Shown one piece after another: positions 4,449-16,025 of a stretch of 22,753 nt of DNA. Origin of the DNA: Deltaproteobacteria bacterium (GTDB lineage: Bacteria > Campylobacterota_A > Desulfurellia > JAGGSF01); contig JAGGSF010000076.1 in the NCBI GenBank assembly GCA_021159235.1, forward strand, positions 1 through 22,753, written 5' to 3'. The position numbers were made by a program, and so were the translations under genes. The notes below the pieces were generated by a model. The model had not been told where the DNA came from, ran no database searches, and worked only from the letters and a program-made list of their open reading frames with translations. Positions within the stretch are counted from its first letter, which is position 1, and the number at the start of each line of letters is the position of its first letter.

Positions 4449-5132
4449 ATGAAAGTAGGCGGATTTCAAAAGGTGTCTCTTGTGGATTATCCTGGATATG
4501 TTTGTTCTATTATCTTTACCATAGGTTGTAATTTTCGCTGCGCATATTGTTATAACCACAGTTTAGTGTTACCGGAGGAATATCCAGAACCCATCCCCTT
4601 AGAAGAAGTATGGCAATATTTAAGGAGAAGAAAAGGGAGGATAGATGCGGTGGAGTTTACAGGTGGTGAGCCTACATTGCAGAAGGATTTAATAGAACAG
4701 ATATCGAGGGTGAAGGAGATGGGTTTTTTAGTGAAGTTGGATACGAATGGTTCGAATCCAGAAGTTGTTGACAGCTGTATTAAAAAAGGTATTGTAGACT
4801 ACATTGCTATGGATGTGAAGGCACCGCTTGAAAAATATATGGAAGTGGTGGGAGTATGTGTGGATACAGGTAAGATAAAAGCGTCTATAGATATGATAAA
4901 AGGTTTTAAAGATTATGAACTCCGCACCACCCTTTATCCCGCACTTACCGATGAGGATTTCTTAAAAATTTTTGAACTGGTTAAAGGAGCAAAAAATTAT
5001 TTTCTTCAGGTGTGTTCATTGGAAAATACATTGAAAGACTGTTCACATTTAAAACAATTTTCCGAGAAGAGGATGCAGAGTTTAAAAAAACTGACCTATA
5101 ATTTTGTAAATTATTGTGAGATAAGGAGATAA
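4449..5132 (+). CDS. nrdG: Anaerobic ribonucleoside-triphosphate reductase activating protein (radical SAM)
   Basis: Uses a [4Fe-4S] cluster and S-adenosylmethionine to create the glycyl radical on NrdD, making the reductase competent under anoxia. The 227-residue protein has the radical-SAM cysteine motif C27-x3-C31-x2-C34 (IGCNFRCAYCYN) and the SAM-contacting GGEP at residues 72-75 in EFTGGEPTLQ. It begins with the MKVGGFQKVSLVDYPG signature typical of the longer NrdG type found with Thermotoga-like reductases. It lies 9 nt upstream of nrdD, the opposite of the common nrdD-nrdG order, and overlaps nothing. The ATG follows a predicted leader of about 30 nt without an obvious ribosome-binding site. 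Function is well supported by family motifs and by the neighbouring nrdD. Confidence 0.93.
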   Translation: MKVGGFQKVSLVDYPGYVCSIIFTIGCNFRCAYCYNHSLVLPEEYPEPIPLEEVWQYLRRRKGRIDAVEFTGGEPTLQKDLIEQISRVKEMGFLVKLDTNGSNPEVVDSCIKKGIVDYIAMDVKAPLEKYMEVVGVCVDTGKIKASIDMIKGFKDYELRTTLYPALTDEDFLKIFELVKGAKNYFLQVCSLENTLKDCSHLKQFSEKRMQSLKKLTYNFVNYCEIRR

Positions 5133-5141
5133 GGGGAAAGG

Positions 5142-8100
5142 ATGATTAGTCGTATTGTAAAAAGGGATGGTAAGATCGTAGATTTTAATCTGAAGAAGAT
5201 CACAGATGCCATATACAAGGCGTTGAAAGCAACAAACAGGGATGATTATGGAATGGCAAAAAGGCTAAGCGGAGAGGTTCTGCTTATATTAGAAAGGAAA
5301 TACAGTGAAGAAAATATACCTGGCGTAGAGGATATTCAGGATGTTGTAGAATATGTTCTTTTAGAAAACAAACTCTATGAAACGGCAAAGGCATACATTA
5401 TATATCGCCAGAAGCATAAAGAATTAAGAGAATTAAGAAAACTGTTAGATCCTGCTGGTCTCATTGAAGCATATCTTTATCGCTCGGATTGGTTGGTAAG
5501 GGAAAATTCAAATATGAGTTTCTCTCTACAGGGTATGAACAGCTACGTTGTGAGAAAGGTTGTTTCAGAATACTGGTTGACAAATATTTATCCCAAAGAG
5601 ATAGCGCAGGCCCACAGAAGTGGAGATTTCCATATTCACGATCTGGATTTTTTAGGAGCCTATACATACTTTGGCAAGGAAATAATATTGACAAAGATAA
5701 GCAACGAACTCTTGCTTACTTCGTTTGAACAATTGTATGAATTAATTGCTGAAAAGGAAGTAGTCTTGAGTGAGAAAGATGAAGCCTATGCGAAATATCC
5801 GAAAGAGCTTCTTGTTCTTGATAAAAATGGATGGACAAGGGTCTTGAGAGTAGTGAGAAAAAGAAAGAATAGGCCCATGTTGTTTGTCAAAAATAGAGGG
5901 GGAAGAAGTGTCATAGTTACGGATAATCATCCAATGATTACCGAAAATGGGGAAAAAGAGGCAAAAGATGTAATTGTTGATAGGGATAGGACATTTACTG
6001 TTGATTTGAGTAGTCTACTCGAGAAGGAAGATTTGTGGCGCATTCAATATATAGATTTGTTGAGAGAAATCAAAAAGCATGGCTGGATAAGTAAGAGAGA
6101 TAGACTTTTCTTCAATGGAGAGCCTTTAGACGATCTTAGAGATGAAGAGGGAGACGGATATATCCATACCATAGGTTTTATCTCTAAAAGAAAAATAAAA
6201 CTTACGCGAAAATTTGGTTATTTTATTGGATTTACACTGGCAGAAGGCTACCTTAGTTACAATGAGAAAGAACCAAGGTGTGTTTCCTTAACCCAGAAAG
6301 ATAAAAAACTTCTCCTAAGGGCTAATGAAGGACTGATAGAAAATGGAATGTCGGGATGTCTTATTAAAAGAGAAGATAGATTTGAATTGCAGGTAAAAAA
6401 CCCCTTTTTGCGCTTTTTATTTGAAAAAGTATTCAAAATTAAGCCAGGAGCAAGGAATAAAACATTGCCCATAAATATTCTCTCATACAACAAGGATTTT
6501 GTTGAGGGATTGATTGCAGGTATTTTGGATGGAGACGGATCAATTGATACATCAAGAACAACGCTTTCTTTGAGAATTTCTTCAAGAAGCCTGCTGGAAC
6601 AGATGGCTTTATTGATGCAGCTACTTGGCTTTATACCAAGAGACAGAAATATAGAGGGAGAGGGGAGCATAAGGGAATTTAACGGGAAAAAAATTGTTCA
6701 AAATTATCCCATTTATGGTCTTTCATTTAGAAAAACAACTATAGGCATTTCATCGGAGAAATATATTGAGGCAGAACTTTCGACAAAAGCGTGGCATGAT
6801 GAAACTCGTTCTGCCTGGCATAAGATAATAAATAAAAAAGAGATAAACATTCCTGATGAGTTTATATATGATATTACAACTGAGAGTGGAACGCTTGTTG
6901 TAAACGGTATGTGGAATCATAATTGCGTGGGTTGGGATATAGAAGATTTGCTCCTGACAGGTTTTGGAGGAGTGCCGGGAAAGGTAGAATCTAAACCTGC
7001 CAAACATTTCAGGAGTGCGTTAGGCCAGGTAGTTAACTTCTTCTTCACATTACAGGGTGAATCGGCAGGTGCCCAGGCTTTTTCTTTTGATGGACAAACA
7101 CCAATTGTCATAAAAAGAGATAACAACATAGAATTTATTACATTAGAGATGCTATTTAACGATTATAAACATCATGTAGAAAATCTAAATGAATCTGAAG
7201 TAATTTTCACAGGGAACATTTACAGAAGATACGCTATTGATGATGCTGACAAAAGGGTATATCTGGATTCAAGATTGCCTACAGAACCGATTTTATTTCA
7301 GTTTGACCAAATAGAAGTTTTAACAGAGAATGGCTTCATGCCGTTAAAGGCTATATCAAGGCATAAAATAGAAAGTAGGGATGATGAACTGCTTATGGTG
7401 GAGACGGAAGACGGTAGTATTCTCAGGATAACACGTTCCCATCCTGTAATTTTATCAGATGGAGCAATTAAAAGGGCCGATGAGCTCAGTGTAGGCGACG
7501 AGCTTTTATCCACAAATTCAAAGGTCAATCTCTTTACTGAAAAAATAAAATTGCAAAGTGATTTTGCTTATCTCATCGGCTTTATGATTGCTGAAGGGTG
7601 TTGGGGACATCAAACAAAAGATTATACCATTGTTTCGCAGAAAAAGAATACAGAGGAAAGAGAGAAGATAGAGCATATCTTAAAGAAATTGAAAATACCC
7701 TATTATAAAGATGGAGAGTTTAATATCGTTTTTGGAACCACAAGAATAGGTAGATTTATAAGAAATCATCTTAAATTGCAGGAAGGAAGTCACAGAAAAA
7801 ATCTACCAGCGTTTGTTTTTGAGTTAACAAGAGAGAACATAGGCGACATAATCAGTGGGATAATAGATGGTGATGGAAGTGTTGATAAAGAGAGAATAGT
7901 CAGAATTTCTTCCACGAGTTATACATTGCTAATGCAATTAAAACAAATACTGGGAATCCTTGGTATAAATTCAACAACAAGATATATTGGTTATAAAAAT
8001 GCAAAAGAAAACTGGAAGGATGTTTATGTTATAAGGTTTCGTGTAGACAAGGAACACCTTCAACTCTTTAGACAATCTATCAAGCTCCAGAATGTTAAAA

Positions 8101-10733
8101 CGAAAACAAGAGAATCTCCGAAGTTCTCATCCAAGGTTGTTAAAATTGCCGAAGCTAAAAATAACAGCGAATATGTATACGATATAACTACGGAAAATGA
8201 ATACTTTTTGGTGAACAATATAGTCGTTCATAACTCTAATTTCGATACATATCTGAGTCCATTTATCAGATACGATAATATGAACTACAAACAGGTGAAA
8301 CAGGCATTGCAGGAATTTTTATTCAATATGAATGTACCTACAAGAGTGGGATTTCAATGTATGTCAGAAGATACGGAGATTCTTGGGATAGATGGCTGGA
8401 AAAAATATAATGAGGTTAAAGAAGGAGATATAATTGCTACTTTTAATGTAGATGGTGGTTTTTTAGAGTATCTGCCGGTTAAACATGTCTTTGCCAGAGA
8501 GTATAAGGGGAAGATGTATAATTTGAAAAACCGAATCAGCGACCAGTTAATTTCACCGGATCACAGGATAGTTAGAAGGAAATTTGACTCAGAAAGATAT
8601 GTTCTGGAAAAAGTTGAAGATGTTCTAAAACTAAAATCACCATTTATGGTACCGATTGGAAGCGGAGGAAATGTAAAAGGAGATGTTTCCATTAGTGAAG
8701 ATGTAATTAAGTTGATTGCGTGGGTAGTTTCTGAAGGCAGTTTGGATAAAAGTGGTAGAGGTGATGGTAGAATTAGTATCTATCAATCAAAAGTAAAAAG
8801 TCCATATGAGTATGAAGAAATTATTGCTACATGCCGTAATTTAGGACTGAAGTATACTGAAAGAACTCAACAAGGCCTTGGAGATGATTGTAATGTCATA
8901 AGATTTGATGCAGACAGCACCAGAAAAATTTTGAATTACTTTGATTCTAACAAAGAAAGGGGCATTAAATTTATCCCTGATATTATTCTTAATGCAGATA
9001 CGGAGTCTTCAAGACTATTTATAGAAACCTATATTCAAGGTGATGGTTATGAGGGGTGTAAAATTGTTACTACTTCTGAGGCTATACGGGATGGATTATT
9101 ACAGGTAATCGTGAATGCAGGATATGGGGCAACGGTTTCAGTGCGAAAACCGGACAATAAGTTGTCTAAGAAAGATAGATTTATCATAAGAGTGATCAAG
9201 CATAGGGATACTTATATTGAAAAGATTGAAGAAGTTGAGTATGAAGGCATTATCTGGTGTCCCAATACGGACAATGAGACTGTAGTTGCGAGAAGAAATG
9301 GAAAAATTTTTATTACGGGCAATACACCATTTACAAATGTTACACTGGATTTGAAAGTTCCTGATTTTATGAAACATAAAGCGGTAATTGTTGGTGGCAA
9401 GTTGCAGAATGCATCCTATGGTGAATTTCAGAAGGAAATGGATATGTTCAATAGAGCCTTTGCTGAGGTGATGGCAGAGGGCGATGCAAAGGGAAGACCT
9501 TTTACCTTTCCTATTCCAACCTATAACATCACAAAGGATTTTGAGTGGGATAACGAAAATTATATACCTATATGGGAGATGACAAGAAAGTATGGTATTC
9601 CATACTTCTCAAATTTTGTTAATTCTGATATGAAACCGGAAGATGCAAGGAGTATGTGCTGCAGGCTCAGACTCGATTTGAAGCAGTTGGCGAAGCGGGG
9701 CGGTGGTTTATTCGGTTCTAATCCTTTAACCGGTTCCATTGGCGTGGTTACCATAAATATGCCCAGAATTGCCTATCTTTCCAAAACGGAAGGAGAGTTT
9801 TTTGAAAAGCTGGAAAGATTGATGGAAATGGCTAAGGAATCACTGGTAATAAAGAGAAAGATGATAGAAAAACTAACGGATGCTGGTCTTTATCCTTATT
9901 CCCGTCATTACCTGAGAAATGTTAAGGAAAGATTCGGGGAATACTGGAAGAATCACTTTTCAACGATTGGACTTATCGGCATGAACGAGGCTTGCCTGAA
10001 TTTTGAACCTTTAAGATGCACCATTGGAGATGAAAGGGGTAAAGAATTTGCCTTAAAGGTGCTTGATTTTATGAGGGGAAAATTGTTGAAATTCCAGGAA
10101 GAGGAAGGTAATAACTACAATCTGGAAGCAACACCTGCAGAGGGCACTTCTCATTCTCTGGCTCTACTGGATAAAGAGCGTTTTCCTGATATTATCACTC
10201 AGGGCAGCGGGGATGGCGTTTTTTACACAAATTCTTCCCAACTACCTGTAGATTTTAGCGATGACATATTTGAGGTGTTGGATCTGCAGGATGAAGTACA
10301 GTGTAAATACACAGGAGGCACGGTCATTCACATATTCTTAGGCGAATCCTTAAATGATTACAGGTCTGTTAAAAATTTAGCGAGGAAGGTGATTGATAAT
10401 TACAGACTCCCATATTTTACCATAACTCCCACCTTTTCCATTTGTCCCATACACGGTTATATTCCTGGAGAACATCCTACCTGTCCTGTATGTGAAGAGG
10501 AGAAAAGGGTTGAAATTAAAGCTGAGATACAGAAGCTTAAAACTCAACTTGAGCAGATGAAGGCAAGAGAAGAAACTTCAGGTAAAATTAAAAGACTGGA
10601 AAAAGAATTAAAAGAGGTAAAAGGCACCCCTTGTGAGGTATTTTCCAGAAGTGTAGGTTACCTGCGTCCTGTAAGCCAGTGGAACAGGGGGAAGCAGGAA
10701 GAATTTAAGAAAAGAAAAGCATTTAAGGTGTAG
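5142..10733 (+). CDS. nrdD: Anaerobic (class III) ribonucleoside-triphosphate reductase precursor with three inteins
   Basis: Reduces ribonucleoside triphosphates to deoxyribonucleotides without oxygen, using a glycyl radical. The 1863-codon frame encodes exteins 1-174, 595-647, 1032-1072 and 1395-1863, which join to a 737-residue protein. Seen in the exteins: an N-terminal ATP-cone (about 1-95), FHIHDLDFLGAY joined to CVGWD, GAQAF joined to SNFDTYL, GFQ joined to TPFTN, and MCCRLRLD (1505-1512). The zinc site is C1768PIH plus C1781PVC. The glycyl-radical loop is RSVGYLRPVSQW with Gly1839 (mature Gly713). Residues about 1785-1828 form a charged, heptad-like insertion between the zinc site and radical loop. 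The ATG at 5142 is preceded by AAGGGGAAAGG and by AAGGAGA in the end of nrdG. Activation is presumably by the adjacent NrdG. Activity requires removal of all three inteins. Confidence 0.95.
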   Translation: MISRIVKRDGKIVDFNLKKITDAIYKALKATNRDDYGMAKRLSGEVLLILERKYSEENIPGVEDIQDVVEYVLLENKLYETAKAYIIYRQKHKELRELRKLLDPAGLIEAYLYRSDWLVRENSNMSFSLQGMNSYVVRKVVSEYWLTNIYPKEIAQAHRSGDFHIHDLDFLGAYTYFGKEIILTKISNELLLTSFEQLYELIAEKEVVLSEKDEAYAKYPKELLVLDKNGWTRVLRVVRKRKNRPMLFVKNRGGRSVIVTDNHPMITENGEKEAKDVIVDRDRTFTVDLSSLLEKEDLWRIQYIDLLREIKKHGWISKRDRLFFNGEPLDDLRDEEGDGYIHTIGFISKRKIKLTRKFGYFIGFTLAEGYLSYNEKEPRCVSLTQKDKKLLLRANEGLIENGMSGCLIKREDRFELQVKNPFLRFLFEKVFKIKPGARNKTLPINILSYNKDFVEGLIAGILDGDGSIDTSRTTLSLRISSRSLLEQMALLMQLLGFIPRDRNIEGEGSIREFNGKKIVQNYPIYGLSFRKTTIGISSEKYIEAELSTKAWHDETRSAWHKIINKKEINIPDEFIYDITTESGTLVVNGMWNHNCVGWDIEDLLLTGFGGVPGKVESKPAKHFRSALGQVVNFFFTLQGESAGAQAFSFDGQTPIVIKRDNNIEFITLEMLFNDYKHHVENLNESEVIFTGNIYRRYAIDDADKRVYLDSRLPTEPILFQFDQIEVLTENGFMPLKAISRHKIESRDDELLMVETEDGSILRITRSHPVILSDGAIKRADELSVGDELLSTNSKVNLFTEKIKLQSDFAYLIGFMIAEGCWGHQTKDYTIVSQKKNTEEREKIEHILKKLKIPYYKDGEFNIVFGTTRIGRFIRNHLKLQEGSHRKNLPAFVFELTRENIGDIISGIIDGDGSVDKERIVRISSTSYTLLMQLKQILGILGINSTTRYIGYKNAKENWKDVYVIRFRVDKEHLQLFRQSIKLQNVKTKTRESPKFSSKVVKIAEAKNNSEYVYDITTENEYFLVNNIVVHNSNFDTYLSPFIRYDNMNYKQVKQALQEFLFNMNVPTRVGFQCMSEDTEILGIDGWKKYNEVKEGDIIATFNVDGGFLEYLPVKHVFAREYKGKMYNLKNRISDQLISPDHRIVRRKFDSERYVLEKVEDVLKLKSPFMVPIGSGGNVKGDVSISEDVIKLIAWVVSEGSLDKSGRGDGRISIYQSKVKSPYEYEEIIATCRNLGLKYTERTQQGLGDDCNVIRFDADSTRKILNYFDSNKERGIKFIPDIILNADTESSRLFIETYIQGDGYEGCKIVTTSEAIRDGLLQVIVNAGYGATVSVRKPDNKLSKKDRFIIRVIKHRDTYIEKIEEVEYEGIIWCPNTDNETVVARRNGKIFITGNTPFTNVTLDLKVPDFMKHKAVIVGGKLQNASYGEFQKEMDMFNRAFAEVMAEGDAKGRPFTFPIPTYNITKDFEWDNENYIPIWEMTRKYGIPYFSNFVNSDMKPEDARSMCCRLRLDLKQLAKRGGGLFGSNPLTGSIGVVTINMPRIAYLSKTEGEFFEKLERLMEMAKESLVIKRKMIEKLTDAGLYPYSRHYLRNVKERFGEYWKNHFSTIGLIGMNEACLNFEPLRCTIGDERGKEFALKVLDFMRGKLLKFQEEEGNNYNLEATPAEGTSHSLALLDKERFPDIITQGSGDGVFYTNSSQLPVDFSDDIFEVLDLQDEVQCKYTGGTVIHIFLGESLNDYRSVKNLARKVIDNYRLPYFTITPTFSICPIHGYIPGEHPTCPVCEEEKRVEIKAEIQKLKTQLEQMKAREETSGKIKRLEKELKEVKGTPCEVFSRSVGYLRPVSQWNRGKQEEFKKRKAFKV
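5664..6923 (+). mobile_element. Intein 1 in NrdD (residues 175-594, 420 aa) with LAGLIDADG endonuclease; atypical Thr1
   Basis: Inserted between Tyr174 and Cys595 of the precursor, interrupting the conserved GAY-CVGWD motif. The N-terminal block reads TYFGKEIIL with Thr (ACA) at position 1 instead of Cys or Ser. Block B is VTDNH (Thr260, His263). The endonuclease has motif 1 FIGFTLAEG (Glu368) and motif 2 IAGILDGDG (Asp465), both keeping the acidic residue. Block F is FIYDITTES, and the C-terminus is WNHN (His593-Asn594) followed by Cys+1. The borders are fixed by reconstructing the uninterrupted NrdD motif. No Cys sits at the block F position used by class 3 inteins. Whether splicing works with Thr1 cannot be told from sequence. 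By eye, base composition is more AT-rich than the exteins. Confidence 0.9.
7083..8234 (+). mobile_element. Intein 2 in NrdD (residues 648-1031, 384 aa) with LAGLIDADG endonuclease; Ser1/Ser+1
   Basis: Splits GAQAF and SNFDTYLSPFIRYD. It starts SFDGQTPIVI (Ser648) and ends IVVHN (His1030-Asn1031) before Ser+1, an all-hydroxyl nucleophile pair. Block B is RITRSH (Thr764, His767). Endonuclease motifs are LIGFMIAEG (Glu818) and ISGIIDGDG (Asp911), so both catalytic-type acids remain. Block F is YVYDITTENEYFLVNN. All splicing landmarks are standard for a class 1 intein, so it is probably splicing-competent and possibly still mobile. The C-terminal block resembles that of intein 1 (both YDITTE), hinting at distant common ancestry. 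Confidence 0.93.
8358..9323 (+). mobile_element. Intein 3 in NrdD (residues 1073-1394, 322 aa) with LAGLIDADG-like endonuclease; Cys1/Thr+1
   Basis: Splits GFQ and TPFTNVTLD. It starts CMSEDTEILGIDGW (Cys1073), the classical class 1 N-terminus. Block B has Ser in place of the usual Thr (SPDH, Ser1138-His1141). The endonuclease motifs are divergent but keep the acids: IAWVVSEG (Glu1198) and IETYIQGDG (Asp1301). It ends RNGKIFITGN with Gly1393-Asn1394 instead of His-Asn, followed by Thr+1. The IIWCPNTDNETVVARRNG stretch before the end is typical of inteins with a Gly-Asn terminus. It appears to come from a different lineage than inteins 1 and 2. Confidence 0.92.
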
Positions 10734-10736
10734 GAA

Positions 10737-11267
10737 ATGCGTGTTTTAAAGCTTTTTTTAATATTGATATTTATGGCTGCTCTTTCTTCCATGGTTTATA
10801 GCAAAGAGTTAAAAAAGGAGATAACGGTAAGGGTAGTGAAATCCAATCTCTTTTATACAGAGAGAATTACATTTGATAGGGAAGGGTTTGATAGAGAAAA
10901 AAACAGTTACTTAAAAGACAGGGGTTCCTATCGTTTAATGGTAATGGATAGATTTAAGAAGAGATATTTAAAGGAATCTCCCCTGAGAGCAGGGGGTTGG
11001 AAGGATGTAATGTTTTCCGATAAAGAGCGGACCTTAACCATTCAGTGCACGGTAAGGGGAGCGGTAACAAGAACGATGGGAGAAAATGTAGCCGACTTTG
11101 GATGGCTTCTGGAGCCTTACAGTATGGACCTCTTTTGCTTTAAAAAAACATCTCCGAGACAGCTTTCAGCCTGCAAGAAGGTGAATAATACTCTGAATGC
11201 ATTTGTGTTGAGATTTCCATCATCCATTGTTGGACATTGCTATTATCATGTGTGGTATAAGCAATGA
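10737..11267 (+). CDS. Secreted protein of unknown function, first gene of the pilus cluster
   Basis: I do not recognise a family. The 176-residue protein begins with a clear signal peptide (MRVLKLFLILIFMAALSSMVYS, cleavage probably just after it) and then appears soluble, so a periplasmic or exported location is likely. It contains four cysteines after the signal peptide (in TIQCTV, LFCFKK, SACKK and GHCYYH), which could form disulfides, and many basic and aromatic residues. The ATG lies 3 nt after the nrdD stop, with AAGGTG at 10725-10730 as a probable ribosome-binding site inside the end of nrdD. Its stop overlaps the next start as ATGA, so it is translationally coupled to the PilM-like gene and is probably part of the pilus machinery. 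A specific role would be a guess. Confidence 0.8.
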   Translation: MRVLKLFLILIFMAALSSMVYSKELKKEITVRVVKSNLFYTERITFDREGFDREKNSYLKDRGSYRLMVMDRFKKRYLKESPLRAGGWKDVMFSDKERTLTIQCTVRGAVTRTMGENVADFGWLLEPYSMDLFCFKKTSPRQLSACKKVNNTLNAFVLRFPSSIVGHCYYHVWYKQ

Positions 11268-12568
11268 AATGTTTTCTTTCTCTAAGTATTGGGGAAAAGG
11301 AATTTTCATTTCTGCGTGGATTTAGAAAGAGAGGATATGTGGTAGTAAGAGAGCTAAAAACATATCCCATAGACAGAATAAACATGATTTCTTCTAAAAG
11401 AGAGGATGTTTATGTCAATTATGCCAGCTCGTTTTCTTATTTTGATGTCCAGAATGTACCGAGAATGAGTAAAAAAGTGCTCCCTCTTTACTTGAGAAAG
11501 AGAATAGATGATATGGGTATAATGAAGGAGAGGGAGGATTTTTTTATAAAATATAGAGTAGTTGAAGAAACAGAGGAAATTTTGAAGGTTGCTTACTTCA
11601 CCGCACCCAGAAGAGAAAAAGAAAAGATATTCCAGGCTTTGCAATCGAGGTTTCAGATATTAAAACTCTTTACATTGAAGATGTGTGCCATAGCCCGTTT
11701 GCTTTCTCATATTACCAGGAAGATAAATGTTGCCGTTTTTAAGGATGGAGGAGAAACATTATGTGTGTTTAATAGAGATGGTGTTATCTATCATGTGCAT
11801 GTCTCAAGAACGGAGATATCCGATGTGGAACTGGAAAGTGCTATTCGCTATTTTGAGGAAAACTTTCATGAAAGGTTAAAGATTTGTTTTCTTATCGGAG
11901 AAGAAGTGCAGAAGGAATATAATATCTCTGTACCTGTTTGCAGTCCTTTCTTTGGTAATTTGATTAGAGGAATAAACAACAGGGATGCAAACAACTTTGC
12001 TTCGGTCTTAGGAAATCTGTTTGTAACGGATGAAGAAAATTTATTACCCGAACAATACACGAGTTTGGTTAAAAACCTGCATTTATCTAAGAGAATAGGT
12101 GTGTGTTTTTTTATTTTCTCTTTTATCTTTCTTGTTTTGGCTGTATACAACTTGGGTATAATTCACAATTTGAAAAGGTGTTATGAAATAAAACGTGCGG
12201 TTGTGGAAAGGGAGATAGATCATATAAATAGGTCAAGACCCAGTGAAGAAGAAATTAGAAAACTCAACGCTTTTATAAATCTTTATAGAACTTTTCTGGA
12301 TGAACCAAAGGTGACGGCTGTAACGGTATGGTTTTGCAAGAATACACCTCGCAATATAAGATTTACAAATGCAGACATGAAGATGGAAAACGGAAGTCTC
12401 AATATAAGTATAAAGGGGATGGCCTTGGGCAACTATGAAGGAGCAAAGCAGTCCTTCATTCTTTTATTAAACAGAATGAAAACGCATTTTATTTTGCAGG
12501 ATAAGGTGTTCAACTATACGGGAAGTGGAGGGTTTTTTTCTATAAAGTGTATTAGAAAAAAATTATGA
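11264..12568 (+). CDS. PilM-PilN-like (MshI/GspL-like) inner-membrane assembly protein
   Basis: The layout matches a fusion of the cytoplasmic actin-like PilM and membrane-anchored PilN of type IV pili, as in GspL or MshI. Of 434 residues, about 1-255 are a soluble, degenerate actin-like part. ENLLPEQYTSL (258-268) resembles the cytoplasmic INLLP lead-in of PilN, followed by one transmembrane helix (about 278-300). A helical stretch (305-345) and a C-terminal ferredoxin-like region (about 350-434) would lie in the periplasm. Such proteins link the cytoplasmic motor ATPase to the PilO/PilP ring. The sequence is very diverged, so recognition relies on topology and gene order (this gene, PilO-like, PilP-like, secretin, TPR protein), which matches mshI-J-K-L-N. 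Start and stop overlap both neighbours as ATGA. Confidence 0.72.
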   Translation: MKCFLSLSIGEKEFSFLRGFRKRGYVVVRELKTYPIDRINMISSKREDVYVNYASSFSYFDVQNVPRMSKKVLPLYLRKRIDDMGIMKEREDFFIKYRVVEETEEILKVAYFTAPRREKEKIFQALQSRFQILKLFTLKMCAIARLLSHITRKINVAVFKDGGETLCVFNRDGVIYHVHVSRTEISDVELESAIRYFEENFHERLKICFLIGEEVQKEYNISVPVCSPFFGNLIRGINNRDANNFASVLGNLFVTDEENLLPEQYTSLVKNLHLSKRIGVCFFIFSFIFLVLAVYNLGIIHNLKRCYEIKRAVVEREIDHINRSRPSEEEIRKLNAFINLYRTFLDEPKVTAVTVWFCKNTPRNIRFTNADMKMENGSLNISIKGMALGNYEGAKQSFILLLNRMKTHFILQDKVFNYTGSGGFFSIKCIRKKL

Positions 12569-12954
12569 ATCTTTTTAAAAAATGGTGCCTTTTTCCCATA
12601 ATTTCATCTGTGATTCTGTTTATCTGTCTGTCCTTTTTTTACTACACTGCTGCTTTGAAAAAGGATTTTAGTGATAAACTGCAAGCTCTGGATGTTTGTT
12701 TTAAGAAGGTGCAGAGAGAAAAACAAGAGGTGAAACTGATAAAAAATTTAAGAGAAGAGATAGAAGAGGAAGGATTATTCATAGAATCAACACCTATTGA
12801 AATAAGTGCTGAATTTACGGGAAGGGATATTTCTACGGTTATAAATTACATAAATAGCACATATTACAGAGGTGGACTCTTTTTTGTGGACAGGTTTACA
12901 ATAGATGCAAAAGAAGGTGGTGTGCAGTATGCCATTAAAGGGAAAAAGTTTTAG
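12565..12954 (+). CDS. PilO/GspM/MshJ-like inner-membrane pilus assembly protein
   Basis: A small 129-residue bitopic protein: short basic N-terminus, one transmembrane helix (about residues 8-28), a charged coiled-coil segment (about 30-72), then a small alpha/beta domain (EISAEFTGRDISTVINYINS). This is the PilO/GspM/MshJ layout; those proteins dimerise with the PilN/GspL periplasmic domain. It is shorter than typical PilO. The ATG overlaps the previous stop as ATGA, and the 3' end overlaps the next gene by 26 nt. Assignment is from topology and position and not from a recognised signature. Confidence 0.68.
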   Translation: MNLFKKWCLFPIISSVILFICLSFFYYTAALKKDFSDKLQALDVCFKKVQREKQEVKLIKNLREEIEEEGLFIESTPIEISAEFTGRDISTVINYINSTYYRGGLFFVDRFTIDAKEGGVQYAIKGKKF

Positions 12955-13348
12955 ATTGTTTTTGCCGTATTGTTTAGCCTGCATTGCCTTCTTGATTTTG
13001 TTTTTTTCTTATAAACCAGGATCTGAACTTGAACTACCGCATATTAAGACTATAAATATTAACACGAAGGGTGTGAAAATAGAACATATAAAAAATCTGC
13101 ATTATGAAGGGTTACCCAACCCATTTATTGGCAGGGAAAAGATTGTGGAAAAATTAACGCGAGGAAGTGTTGATGTATCTTGTGAGCATACCCTTTCACT
13201 TATTATTCTCGGCAATAAGAAGACCTGCATCATAGATGGAAAAACGATGAGAGTAGGAGACAGGGTGGATGGGTTGAAGGTATTAAAAATAGAGAGAAAC
13301 AGTGTGACTATTCTGGAGAATGGAAAGAAAAAACGATTGAAGATATAG
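12929..13348 (+). CDS. PilP/GspC/MshK-like periplasmic linker to the secretin
   Basis: The 139-residue protein has a membrane anchor (about residues 11-29), a disordered periplasmic linker, and a C-terminal beta domain (about 85-139) with the pattern seen in the homology region of GspC/PilP: SLIILGNKKTCIIDGKTM, then VGDRVDGLKVLKIERNSV and ILENGKKKRLKI. This domain normally contacts the N domains of the secretin. The frame is open from an ATG at 12905, but the ATG at 12929 has AAGGTGG 8 nt upstream and places the N-terminus just before the membrane helix, so it is chosen. It overlaps the previous gene by 26 nt and ends 1 nt before the secretin gene. Confidence 0.75.
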   Translation: MPLKGKSFRLFLPYCLACIAFLILFFSYKPGSELELPHIKTININTKGVKIEHIKNLHYEGLPNPFIGREKIVEKLTRGSVDVSCEHTLSLIILGNKKTCIIDGKTMRVGDRVDGLKVLKIERNSVTILENGKKKRLKI

Positions 13349-13349
13349 A

Positions 13350-14807
13350 ATGAGAAAAATAGTTTCTTTGGTTTTGGTTTTATTTTTGGTTACCGCTTGT
13401 GTTTCAAATAAAAATGTAAAAACAGAGAAAACCGCCCCTCTTATTCCACCACCTAAGAAAGAGGTGCCGCCCTTAAAACCCATCGTTAAGAAGATATCCC
13501 CTCTGGATAATAAGTATTTTACATTGAGTGCGAAGGGAATAGATTATAAGGTCGTTTTATACGAGATAGCTAAGGATGCAGGTTTGAATCTTATCATTAA
13601 AGAGGATGCTGATTCGGTTGTCCCAGAAAGTGCGCATTCTTTGACGGTGAATTTTATACATCTGCCCCTTAGTCAGGCCTTAGATATAATTACAAAGTCT
13701 AACAATCTCTTTTATGAGATAAGAGAAAATGTGCTGTATATAAAAGGATATTCTACAAAGGTTTTTTCTCTGGATTTTATCTCTCATATTCGTTCCTCCA
13801 CCCTCAATGTAGGAGGGGATGTTTTGGGGGGAGTAGGTACAGAGGATGTAACGACTCCCTTAACCGGTAGCTACGCTCTCAAAGGTTCTGTGAAGGAAGA
13901 TGTAACTGATATCTACAAGCAGATTGAAGATGGCGTCAGGACATTTCTCTCTAAGAATGGGAAGTATTCCCTGGATAAACTCACCGGAACTCTTGTTGTA
14001 TACGATCAGAGAAAAAATCTGGACAGAATAAGCACATACATTGGTAATGTAAAGAGAGCCTATATCAGACAAGTGCTGATTGAAACAAGAATTATTGAGG
14101 TAACTCTCAACAAAGATAATGAATTGGGTATTGATTGGCAGGCGATGGGACACAAGATATTGAACAGAAAATTTGAGTTGAATATGTCACAGACATTGGC
14201 CCTGAGTGATTATACTTTCAGTGTAGGGGTGGCAGGTATTAGAAGTGGTGTAACAGGTGATAAAGCCTTGCTTACCGCTTTGTCCACCTGCGGTAAAGTG
14301 CGCACCATCTCCAATCCCCGGATTCGTGCCTTAAATGGGCAGCCGGCACTGATCAGTGTGGGTAAATCTATTTCTTATATCAAAAAATTGGAATATGAAA
14401 CAGAAACTGTCAGCGGTGGAACGACGACAACAAAACCCACGGTAGAGATCGCTTCTATATTTGACGGAATATTGTTGGGTGTAACACCGTATATTGGTGA
14501 AAATGGAAGTATTCTGCTGAGTATTACGCCCATAAAGAGCGACTTAGAATCATTAAAGGAGGTAAAAATTGGCACCAACACATATACATTACCCCAGGTA
14601 AACTTGAGAGAAACATCTACTGTGGTTAAGGTGAGAAGTGGAGACATTGTTATCCTGTCCGGTCTAATTGGAAAAAAGGAAGAAAAGAAGGAAAGTAAGG
14701 TGCCTCTTTTTGGTGATATTCCCGTATTGGGAAATGTATTTAAGCAACAGGTGGAAACCGCACATAACATAGAATTGGTCATTTTCATAAAGCCCAGCAT
14801 TATCTGA
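13350..14807 (+). CDS. mshL: MshL-type outer-membrane secretin lipoprotein
   Basis: Forms the multimeric outer-membrane pore through which a pilus or pseudopilus passes. The 485-residue protein has a lipoprotein signal ending in LVTAC (Cys17), a Pro/Lys-rich linker, and an STN domain (about 56-135, ending VLYIKGY). A secretin N-domain follows (YSLDKLTGTLVVYDQRKN, 206-223), then the transition RQVLIETRIIEVTL and GIDW typical of the MshL/PulD group. The secretin core has ISNPRIRALNGQPALISVG (320-338) and the C-terminal signature VPLFGDIPVLGNVF (451-464). It starts 1 nt after the PilP-like gene, and its TGA overlaps the next ATG. PilQ is the main alternative name; the neighbourhood and N-domain favour MshL. 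Confidence 0.92.
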   Translation: MRKIVSLVLVLFLVTACVSNKNVKTEKTAPLIPPPKKEVPPLKPIVKKISPLDNKYFTLSAKGIDYKVVLYEIAKDAGLNLIIKEDADSVVPESAHSLTVNFIHLPLSQALDIITKSNNLFYEIRENVLYIKGYSTKVFSLDFISHIRSSTLNVGGDVLGGVGTEDVTTPLTGSYALKGSVKEDVTDIYKQIEDGVRTFLSKNGKYSLDKLTGTLVVYDQRKNLDRISTYIGNVKRAYIRQVLIETRIIEVTLNKDNELGIDWQAMGHKILNRKFELNMSQTLALSDYTFSVGVAGIRSGVTGDKALLTALSTCGKVRTISNPRIRALNGQPALISVGKSISYIKKLEYETETVSGGTTTTKPTVEIASIFDGILLGVTPYIGENGSILLSITPIKSDLESLKEVKIGTNTYTLPQVNLRETSTVVKVRSGDIVILSGLIGKKEEKKESKVPLFGDIPVLGNVFKQQVETAHNIELVIFIKPSII

Positions 14808-15601
14808 TGAGCAAATTATATGAAGCTTTAAAAAGGATAGAGAAGAAAGAAGAGAAGAAAGGGAAAAGTGGTGGAAATATACCATGTGCCATACATCGCA
14901 GGACTATGGATTACTGGATGGGTGGTATTGTCGTTTTTATGATAGCTTTTATTGTAGCAGGTTTTATATTGACGAGGTTGTCTGAGAAAAGGAAGGTTGC
15001 CTCTATCACCTCCACTAAGGTTGACGTGGTTCAGCAGAGGAAAACAGGAAAGGTGGTTGAAAGTCCTGTAAAGCTTGAGGCTGTAAAAACACCTCCGAAG
15101 CAGGCTTCAAAGGTTGAAAAAGCTTCTTCCAGGGTAAAAAAGGTAGCATTACTTCCAGAGAAGATCAAAAAATCTGCATCCCCAGGGAAAAAGGTCAGAA
15201 AAATAGTAAAGAGACCTGTTAAAAAAAAAGTATCCACTTACGATATTACATTGCTTACCTTAGAGGCTCAGAGAGCGACCGAAAAGGGAGAAATAGAAAA
15301 GGCGGTAGAAATGTATAGGAAATTACTCTGTATAAGGAAAGATGATGTATATTTAATGAATAACTTAGGTGCATTATACATAATGGAAGGTAAATACAGC
15401 GATGCTCAGCAGATACTGAAGAAGGCTTACAGCGTTTGCACAGATATGGACATTGCTTTAAACTATGCCAGTGCTTTGTATAAGGGGGGAGATAAAGAAA
15501 GTGCCCGAATGGTTTTAAAACATATTAATCCTTCACTTTTAAAGACGGATGAGCAAAGGGAAACTTATAGAACCTTGAAACATCTGCTGGAGGGTTGGTA
15601 A
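14807..15601 (+). CDS. MshN-like membrane-anchored TPR protein of the pilus cluster
   Basis: Of 264 residues, 1-34 are cytoplasmic and start MSKLYEALKRIEKKEEK, similar in kind to the short motif that opens MshN and GspB-like proteins. One transmembrane helix (about 37-57) is followed by a Lys/Pro/Ser-rich, probably extended periplasmic linker (60-142). At least two to three tetratricopeptide repeats follow (about 148-250, with NNLGALYIMEGKYSDAQQIL clearest). This architecture and the position directly after the secretin match MshN, thought to act in pilus or pore assembly. The ATG overlaps the secretin TGA by one base. The MshM ATPase gene usually found nearby is absent. Confidence 0.75.
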   Translation: MSKLYEALKRIEKKEEKKGKSGGNIPCAIHRRTMDYWMGGIVVFMIAFIVAGFILTRLSEKRKVASITSTKVDVVQQRKTGKVVESPVKLEAVKTPPKQASKVEKASSRVKKVALLPEKIKKSASPGKKVRKIVKRPVKKKVSTYDITLLTLEAQRATEKGEIEKAVEMYRKLLCIRKDDVYLMNNLGALYIMEGKYSDAQQILKKAYSVCTDMDIALNYASALYKGGDKESARMVLKHINPSLLKTDEQRETYRTLKHLLEGW

Positions 15602-15605
15602 ATTT

Positions 15606-16025
15606 ATGGAGAGGTTTAATTCAAGATACTGTTTTGTCTGTGGCAAAGAAAATAAAGGTGGTTTTGGCCTGACATTTTATAAGAAGGGAAACCATGTAGA
15701 AACTACAGTAAAAGTTCCACAGAAATTTAACGGATATAAAAACATTGTTCATGGTGGCATTGTCTCTACATTGCTGGATGAAGTAATAAACTGGGCAGCG
15801 TATGCATTATCTAAGGAAAGAAAGTATTGTGTGACGGCAGAGATGACAGTACGCTTTGAGAAACCCATTCCTGTAGAAAAGGAGCTTTTGTTGTGGGGAG
15901 AGGTAGTTGAGGATAACAAGAGAATGCGTATCTGCAGCGGAAAGATATTGATAGAAGGTGAGGTTTTTGCTACGGGGACAGGAAAGCTAATACCTATAAA
16001 AGACGCCTCTACCATTAAAGAGTAA
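15606..16025 (+). CDS. PaaI-family hotdog-fold thioesterase
   Basis: A likely acyl-CoA or acyl-carrier thioesterase of the PaaI/YbgC-like hotdog superfamily. The 139-residue protein has the N-terminal CFVCGKEN motif (Cys9, Cys12) common in one PaaI branch, and the family hallmark HGGIVSTLLDEV (His49, Gly50-51, Asp58, Glu59), where the acidic residue acts in catalysis. The substrate is unknown. The ATG lies 4 nt after the TPR gene stop, with GGAGG about 11 nt upstream, so it appears to be the last gene of the same transcript although its role in pilus assembly is not evident. The 3' end overlaps the end of the convergent epimerase gene by 11 nt, leaving no space for a terminator. Confidence 0.87.
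   Translation: MERFNSRYCFVCGKENKGGFGLTFYKKGNHVETTVKVPQKFNGYKNIVHGGIVSTLLDEVINWAAYALSKERKYCVTAEMTVRFEKPIPVEKELLLWGEVVEDNKRMRICSGKILIEGEVFATGTGKLIPIKDASTIKE

Follow-up and report, generated by a model that had tools for sequence, protein, structure and literature searches.

How a class III ribonucleotide reductase (RNR) is obtained from a gene crowded with three inteins, and how the first of these may splice when it begins with threonine, are the questions raised by the nrdD gene of the window, i.e., the whole stretch of 22,753 nucleotides analysed here, which is contig 15 in a genome (G000) of 1.13 Mb and 122 contigs, from a small phylum represented by 25 genomes. The precursor is encoded at 5142-10733 by a single uninterrupted open reading frame of 1863 residues, on the forward strand, as are all of its segments and the nrdG-like activase gene (radical SAM, 227 residues; 4449-5132; Pfam Radical_SAM, 6e-23) found directly upstream, in a gene order that is also present in L018 and L022.

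The inserts have 420, 384, and 322 residues, 1126 in sum, and follow mature residues 174, 227, and 268, where the joints read GAY^CVGWD, GAQAF^SNFDTYL, and VGFQ^TPFTN. An intein is recognised when its removal restores an uninterrupted homologue exactly, and this was found at all three inserts, given that the intein-free NrdD of the same-genus genome G002 (L018), 89% identical to that of the window, reads GAYCVGWD, GAQAFSNFDTYL and VGFQTPFTN, exactly as at the window joints. This alignment, which the original prediction had asked for, bears out the reading of three inteins, placed at conserved sites of NrdD. The predicted coordinates, the 1126 added residues, the 737-residue enzyme, and the spacers of 53 and 41 residues all hold, while the span from the first to the last site is 94 residues rather than the 95 given before. 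Of the other relatives, G001 (L022), from the same genus, carries the third intein only, and G009 (L023), from another family, has the site of intein 3 alone occupied.

Removal of the inteins leaves a mature NrdD of 737 residues with a computed mass of 84.95 kDa, made up of the N-extein (mature residues 1-174; 5142-5663), with an ATP-cone and the start of the NRDD domain, the extein segments 175-227 (6924-7082) and 228-268 (8235-8357), and the C-extein (269-737; 9324-10730), which contains the finger-loop SMCC and the glycyl-radical motif RSVGYLRP (10647-10670). The spliced protein reaches 646 bits against Pfam NRDD, with a single main stretch (121-665), whereas the unspliced precursor reaches 576 bits, divided among five pieces, and also contains matches to the Pfam Intein_splicing and LAGLIDADG models. 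The features of a class III NrdD are thus all present, namely, the full NRDD domain, the active-site Cys175, the finger-loop CC, and the C-terminal RSVGYLRP. A search of the window against Rfam gave no match.

The glycyl-radical motif is fused to NrdD in the window genome, and in most relatives from the phylum this segment is a separate open reading frame of 57-60 residues, overlapping the NrdD stop or placed directly after it (L022:1266-4456, L023:839-4002, and L018/L024, for example). A second, free-standing glycyl-radical protein of 60 residues is encoded at L025:1420-1602 (reverse strand; G000 contig 20) and also in L026 (G001 contig 2); the neighbours of the L025 gene, judged by eye, are Fur/PerR-like, rubrerythrin-like, and desulfoferrodoxin-like, and the protein appears to be a replacement part for NrdD under oxidative stress, by analogy with GrcA/YfiD for pyruvate formate-lyase. 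Downstream of nrdD, the operon at 10737-16025 is similar to a cluster for type II secretion or type IV pili; it encodes a secretin (13350-14807) and a TPR protein, and two of its genes are unassigned.

Site 174 is read as Y-C in the intein-free gene, so that intein 1 can only extend from Thr175 to Asn594 of the precursor (420 residues; 5664-6923), and its residue 1 is a threonine, encoded by ACA (5664-5666); a shifted boundary that would provide Cys or Ser as residue 1 is excluded by the same Y-C reading. This threonine, which is invariant in a wide family, is the most unusual feature of the locus, and it was missed in the original prediction, whose own joint (GAY-CVGWD) already fixes it as the first residue of the intein. 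The remainder of intein 1 comprises block B, T-D-N-H (Thr86, His89; 5919-5930), with its T and H invariant in the family, a LAGLIDADG endonuclease with the motifs FIGFTLAEG (6222-6248) and LIAGILDGDG (6510-6539), and the end His419-Asn420, followed by Cys+1. The sequence features of class 1 inteins are found in T86, H89, D403, N420, and C+1, and residue 1, which in class 1 is Cys, Ser, or, formally, Thr, is Thr in intein 1, Ser in intein 2, and Cys in intein 3.

The AlphaFold model of intein 1 with its native flanks has a pLDDT of 90.6 and is matched in VIA-align by full-length inteins, such as TliVMA (7qsu; Z 29.7) and PI-PkoII (2cw7; 26.6), and residues 6..425 of the model (Thr1..Asn420) align from residue 1 to the end with class 1 inteins such as 2cw7, 1dq3, 4e2t, and Mtu RecA. 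In this confident model, Thr1 is predicted to sit where class 1 inteins have Cys1 or Ser1. The class 1 LAGLIDADG inteins TliVMA, PI-PkoII, and PI-PfuI (1dq3) have in common with intein 1 a HINT domain with a nested endonuclease, the TxxH, the block F Asp, and the HN/C end, whereas the family of intein 1 always has Thr1, together with a Glu6 at the position that Thr occupies in inteins 2 and 3. A BFVD structure search with intein 1 returned general viral inteins only.

The family was searched for using patterns from the intein middle and block B, with residue 1 not used. The genome-wide scan yielded 19 loci and the viral scan four, two of them already in the set, all in NrdD and at the same site. 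Threonine is residue 1 in all 24 homologues with a readable N-terminus (one of which, L057, came from a later survey), and all four ACN codons are used to encode it; two viral NrdD inteins that are 46% and 28% identical to intein 1 begin with Thr. The family is present in at least six bacterial phyla, in archaea (Thermoplasmatota), and in viral contigs, and its hosts include Omnitrophota, Bipolaricaulota, Chloroflexota, Desulfobacterales, Peptococcaceae, Staskawicz- and Nealsonbacteria. In the Peptococcaceae genome that carries a Thr1 intein in NrdD, a class I/II-type RNR is encoded as well, and it has an intein-like insertion (G043:C4:47421-49940). The family is rare, being found in 2/297, 5/100, 1/285, 5/292, and 1/379 genomes of the five phyla surveyed, when only matches strong enough for membership are counted, and a search of 72,556 plasmids and 50,697 phage records yielded no member. 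The residues invariant in the 22 aligned rows (27-98% identity, median 45%) include Thr1, Glu6, Thr86, His89, Asp403 (block F:4), His419, and Asn420 in the intein, and Tyr-1 and Cys+1 in the exteins.

In the literature, the formal definition of class 1 admits Ser1, Thr1, or Cys1 (PMC5222942; legend of a figure in PMC4031507), but the running text of PMC4031507 gives Cys1 or Ser1 as the nucleophiles of step 1, and Cys or Ser alone are named for residue 1 in PMC7664689 and PMC8529194. For threonine, the open-access literature provided formal definitions only and no characterised natural Thr1 intein, and the family of intein 1, with its obligatory Thr1, is widespread and apparently uncharacterised.

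Several lines of evidence bear on whether intein 1 splices. Pairs within the family have dN/dS values of 0.09-0.13, which are lower, at most 0.1, in the splicing part, and show purifying selection on these inteins, which argues for splicing. The Cys+1 of intein 1 is mature Cys175 and aligns with Cys79 of T4 NrdD, which is known as an active-site cysteine, so that the unspliced enzyme should be dead. The catalytic subunit of class I/II RNR (PF02867) was provisionally undetected, in what are mostly MAGs, in G000, G001, and G002, and in 14/16 of the Thr1-carrying genomes, in a search in which the control genomes gave the expected matches, and NrdD is, provisionally, the only RNR detected in the window genome. 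Taken together, the dN/dS values, the confident model with Thr1 in the place of Cys1 or Ser1, the active-site Cys+1, and the lack of a detectable class I/II RNR make the splicing of intein 1 very likely. The claim that the inserts must be removed is supported, and the doubt that had been raised about the splicing of so crowded a chain finds its answer here, since, with no class I/II RNR detectable, correct splicing is implied in vivo. A splicing-dead intein 1, either retained in the protein or cutting the chain to give a split NrdD, would fit with the unusual Thr1, but is very improbable for a family that is under purifying selection, has an invariant catalytic set, and is inserted directly before the catalytic Cys of the only RNR detected.

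The best explanation, which is probable rather than firm, is that NrdD contains three self-excising inteins, the first of which splices in a class 1-like manner from Thr1. The inteins would be autonomous HINT/LAGLIDADG elements around which the precursor folds, and the self-excision of all three, with joining of their flanks, would result in the 737-residue class III reductase. In intein 1, splicing would begin with an N-O acyl shift by Thr1 (block A Thr1...Glu6, with the block B TxxH and the block F Asp retained), the oxyester would then be handed to Cys+1, the catalytic cysteine of the enzyme, Asn420 would cyclise, and the ester would rearrange into a peptide bond. The strict invariance of the threonine argues for a chemical role, and Thr1 is thus, on balance, the likely nucleophile of class 1 splicing in intein 1. 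Against this mechanism, threonine is a poor nucleophile. A hydroxyl is also usually unable to replace a catalytic Cys (PMC5222942).

On the other hand, Cys+1 may attack directly, in the manner of class 2 inteins and without Thr1 as the nucleophile, which is possible, if doubtful. Class 2 inteins work without a nucleophile at residue 1 when the +1 residue is Cys, as it is in intein 1. The absence of the usual Thr6 from block A, where Glu6 is found instead, and the presence of KlbA (class 2; 2jmz, Z 17.0) among the structural matches point in this direction, as does the invariance of Cys+1, although this residue would be invariant anyway, being the active-site cysteine of the enzyme, and a non-nucleophilic residue 1 should vary (Ala, Gly, Pro), which it never does in the 24 homologues. 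In addition, class 2 is defined by the absence of Cys, Ser, and Thr from residue 1 (PMC5222942), where all 24 have Thr, and the class 2 MjaKlbA, which has Cys+1 in common with intein 1, differs in its Ala1 and in the Ser that replaces the penultimate His (PMC7765530), while intein 1 retains both Thr1 and His419.

A lower probability is given to the Thr1/Glu6 inteins being a distinct mechanistic type, in which either an activated Thr1 is strictly required or Thr1 only shapes the site and Cys+1 attacks directly, in which case the catalytic residue of the reductase would start the very splicing that creates the reductase; the base activating Thr1 would perhaps be the invariant Glu6 or a nearby Lys, by analogy with the Ntn hydrolases. 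The use of an internal block F cysteine, as in class 3, where a Cys or Ser at residue 1 is not needed either (PMC5222942, PMC7891396), is contradicted by position 4 of block F, which is Asp403 rather than Cys in 22/22 rows, with no WCT triplet, and can hardly be credited.

In addition to the intein for which a start from Thr1 is preferred, the precursor contains two inteins that are, by sequence, ordinary class 1 members. Intein 2 (384 residues; 7083-8234) begins with Ser1 and ends with His-Asn before Ser+1, and intein 3 (322 residues; 8358-9323) begins with Cys1 and ends with Gly-Asn before Thr+1. The Pfam HINT splicing domain matches intein 2 with 54 bits, above the cut-off, and intein 3 with 17.7 bits, under it, yet the latter is homologous from end to end to phage inteins, with 26-28% identity over the full length. 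Pfam LAGLIDADG_3 is over the cut-off in inteins 1 and 2, each with two motifs read in the sequence, and the LAGLIDADG-type motifs of intein 3 (SEGS and QGDG) were read by eye only. Intein 2 is distantly related to intein 1 (27% over 244 residues of the latter), and for its relatives, the viral contigs, the 25 genomes of the phylum, and the phages gave no match, or weak partial matches only. The penultimate Gly of intein 3 is shared with the class 1 mycobacteriophage RDF intein, in which it is functional (PMC5050341), and which differs in the host gene and in the +1 residue, Thr in intein 3.

The three inteins would have been acquired independently, by endonuclease homing. In its DNA, the intein 3 of G000 is 96.7% identical to that of G001 (96% at fourfold sites, dS 0.076), in contrast with flanking exteins that are 83-87% identical (dS 0.731), while the 123-bp extein piece directly upstream (8235-8357) is 98.4% identical; the exteins of G001 are closer to the intein-free G002 (92-96%). 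Such near-identity of the intein and of its upstream tract within diverged exteins is the trace expected of a recent transfer of the endonuclease type, in which 5' co-conversion stopped close to site 227, and it shows intein 3 to be a recent acquisition. At site 174, the intein tree and the extein tree disagree, with, for example, a Chloroflexota intein placed among those of Bipolaricaulota and a viral intein among those of Patescibacteria. In a genome of 122 contigs, an assembly chimera might also join inteins from different strains or genes, but this is exceedingly improbable: a single reading frame stays open over 1863 codons, the joints are exact, the same intein 3 is found again at its site in a sister genome, and the pairing of sites 174 and 268 recurs in L031, L036, L041, and L043.

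The crowding itself was read in related NrdD genes, with the intein-free gene as the reference, and further sites were found after residues 379/380, 542, and 600. L041 (174, 268, 600), L043 (174, 268, 380), and L051 (174, 379, 600) have three inteins each, and L031, L036, L040, L045, and L052 have two, and site 227 is occupied in the window alone among the NrdD genes read. The crowding on which the original prediction had placed its emphasis is thus unusual, but it is not unique, and adds one more case to a pattern already known. In the haloarchaeal MCM, as in NrdD, several inteins have been gained and lost independently at close conserved sites of a replication gene, four in that case (PMC10643990); the gene and the set of sites are different, and NrdD has three sites filled within its 94 residues. 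The NrdD intein of Clostridium phage c-st and the approximately 80 RNR inteins of RNRdb (PMC3653736, PMC2795772) share class III RNR host genes with the window, a likeness of host gene.

Some of these related genes have particularities of their own. The viral NrdD of L031 combines a full Thr1 intein with a 150-residue form of the intein of site 268 (L031:6582-7031) that has no endonuclease-sized insert. In L040 and L043, the inserts after reference residue 380, between the finger-loop cysteines (SMC^CRLRL), begin with Pro (PIHGDEM... and PLHPDTQ...) and are possible Pro1 inteins, and L051 and L052 have Cys1 inteins one residue before this insertion point.

With zero, one, and three inteins, the sister genomes form a natural series in which homing, and the cost of carrying several inteins at once, can be studied. 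It is the Thr1 family that merits testing at the bench, given that its presence in bacteria, archaea, and viruses, directly before the catalytic Cys of an essential enzyme, makes it testable whether threonine can start splicing, and threonine-started splicing would give split-intein tools a new reactivity.
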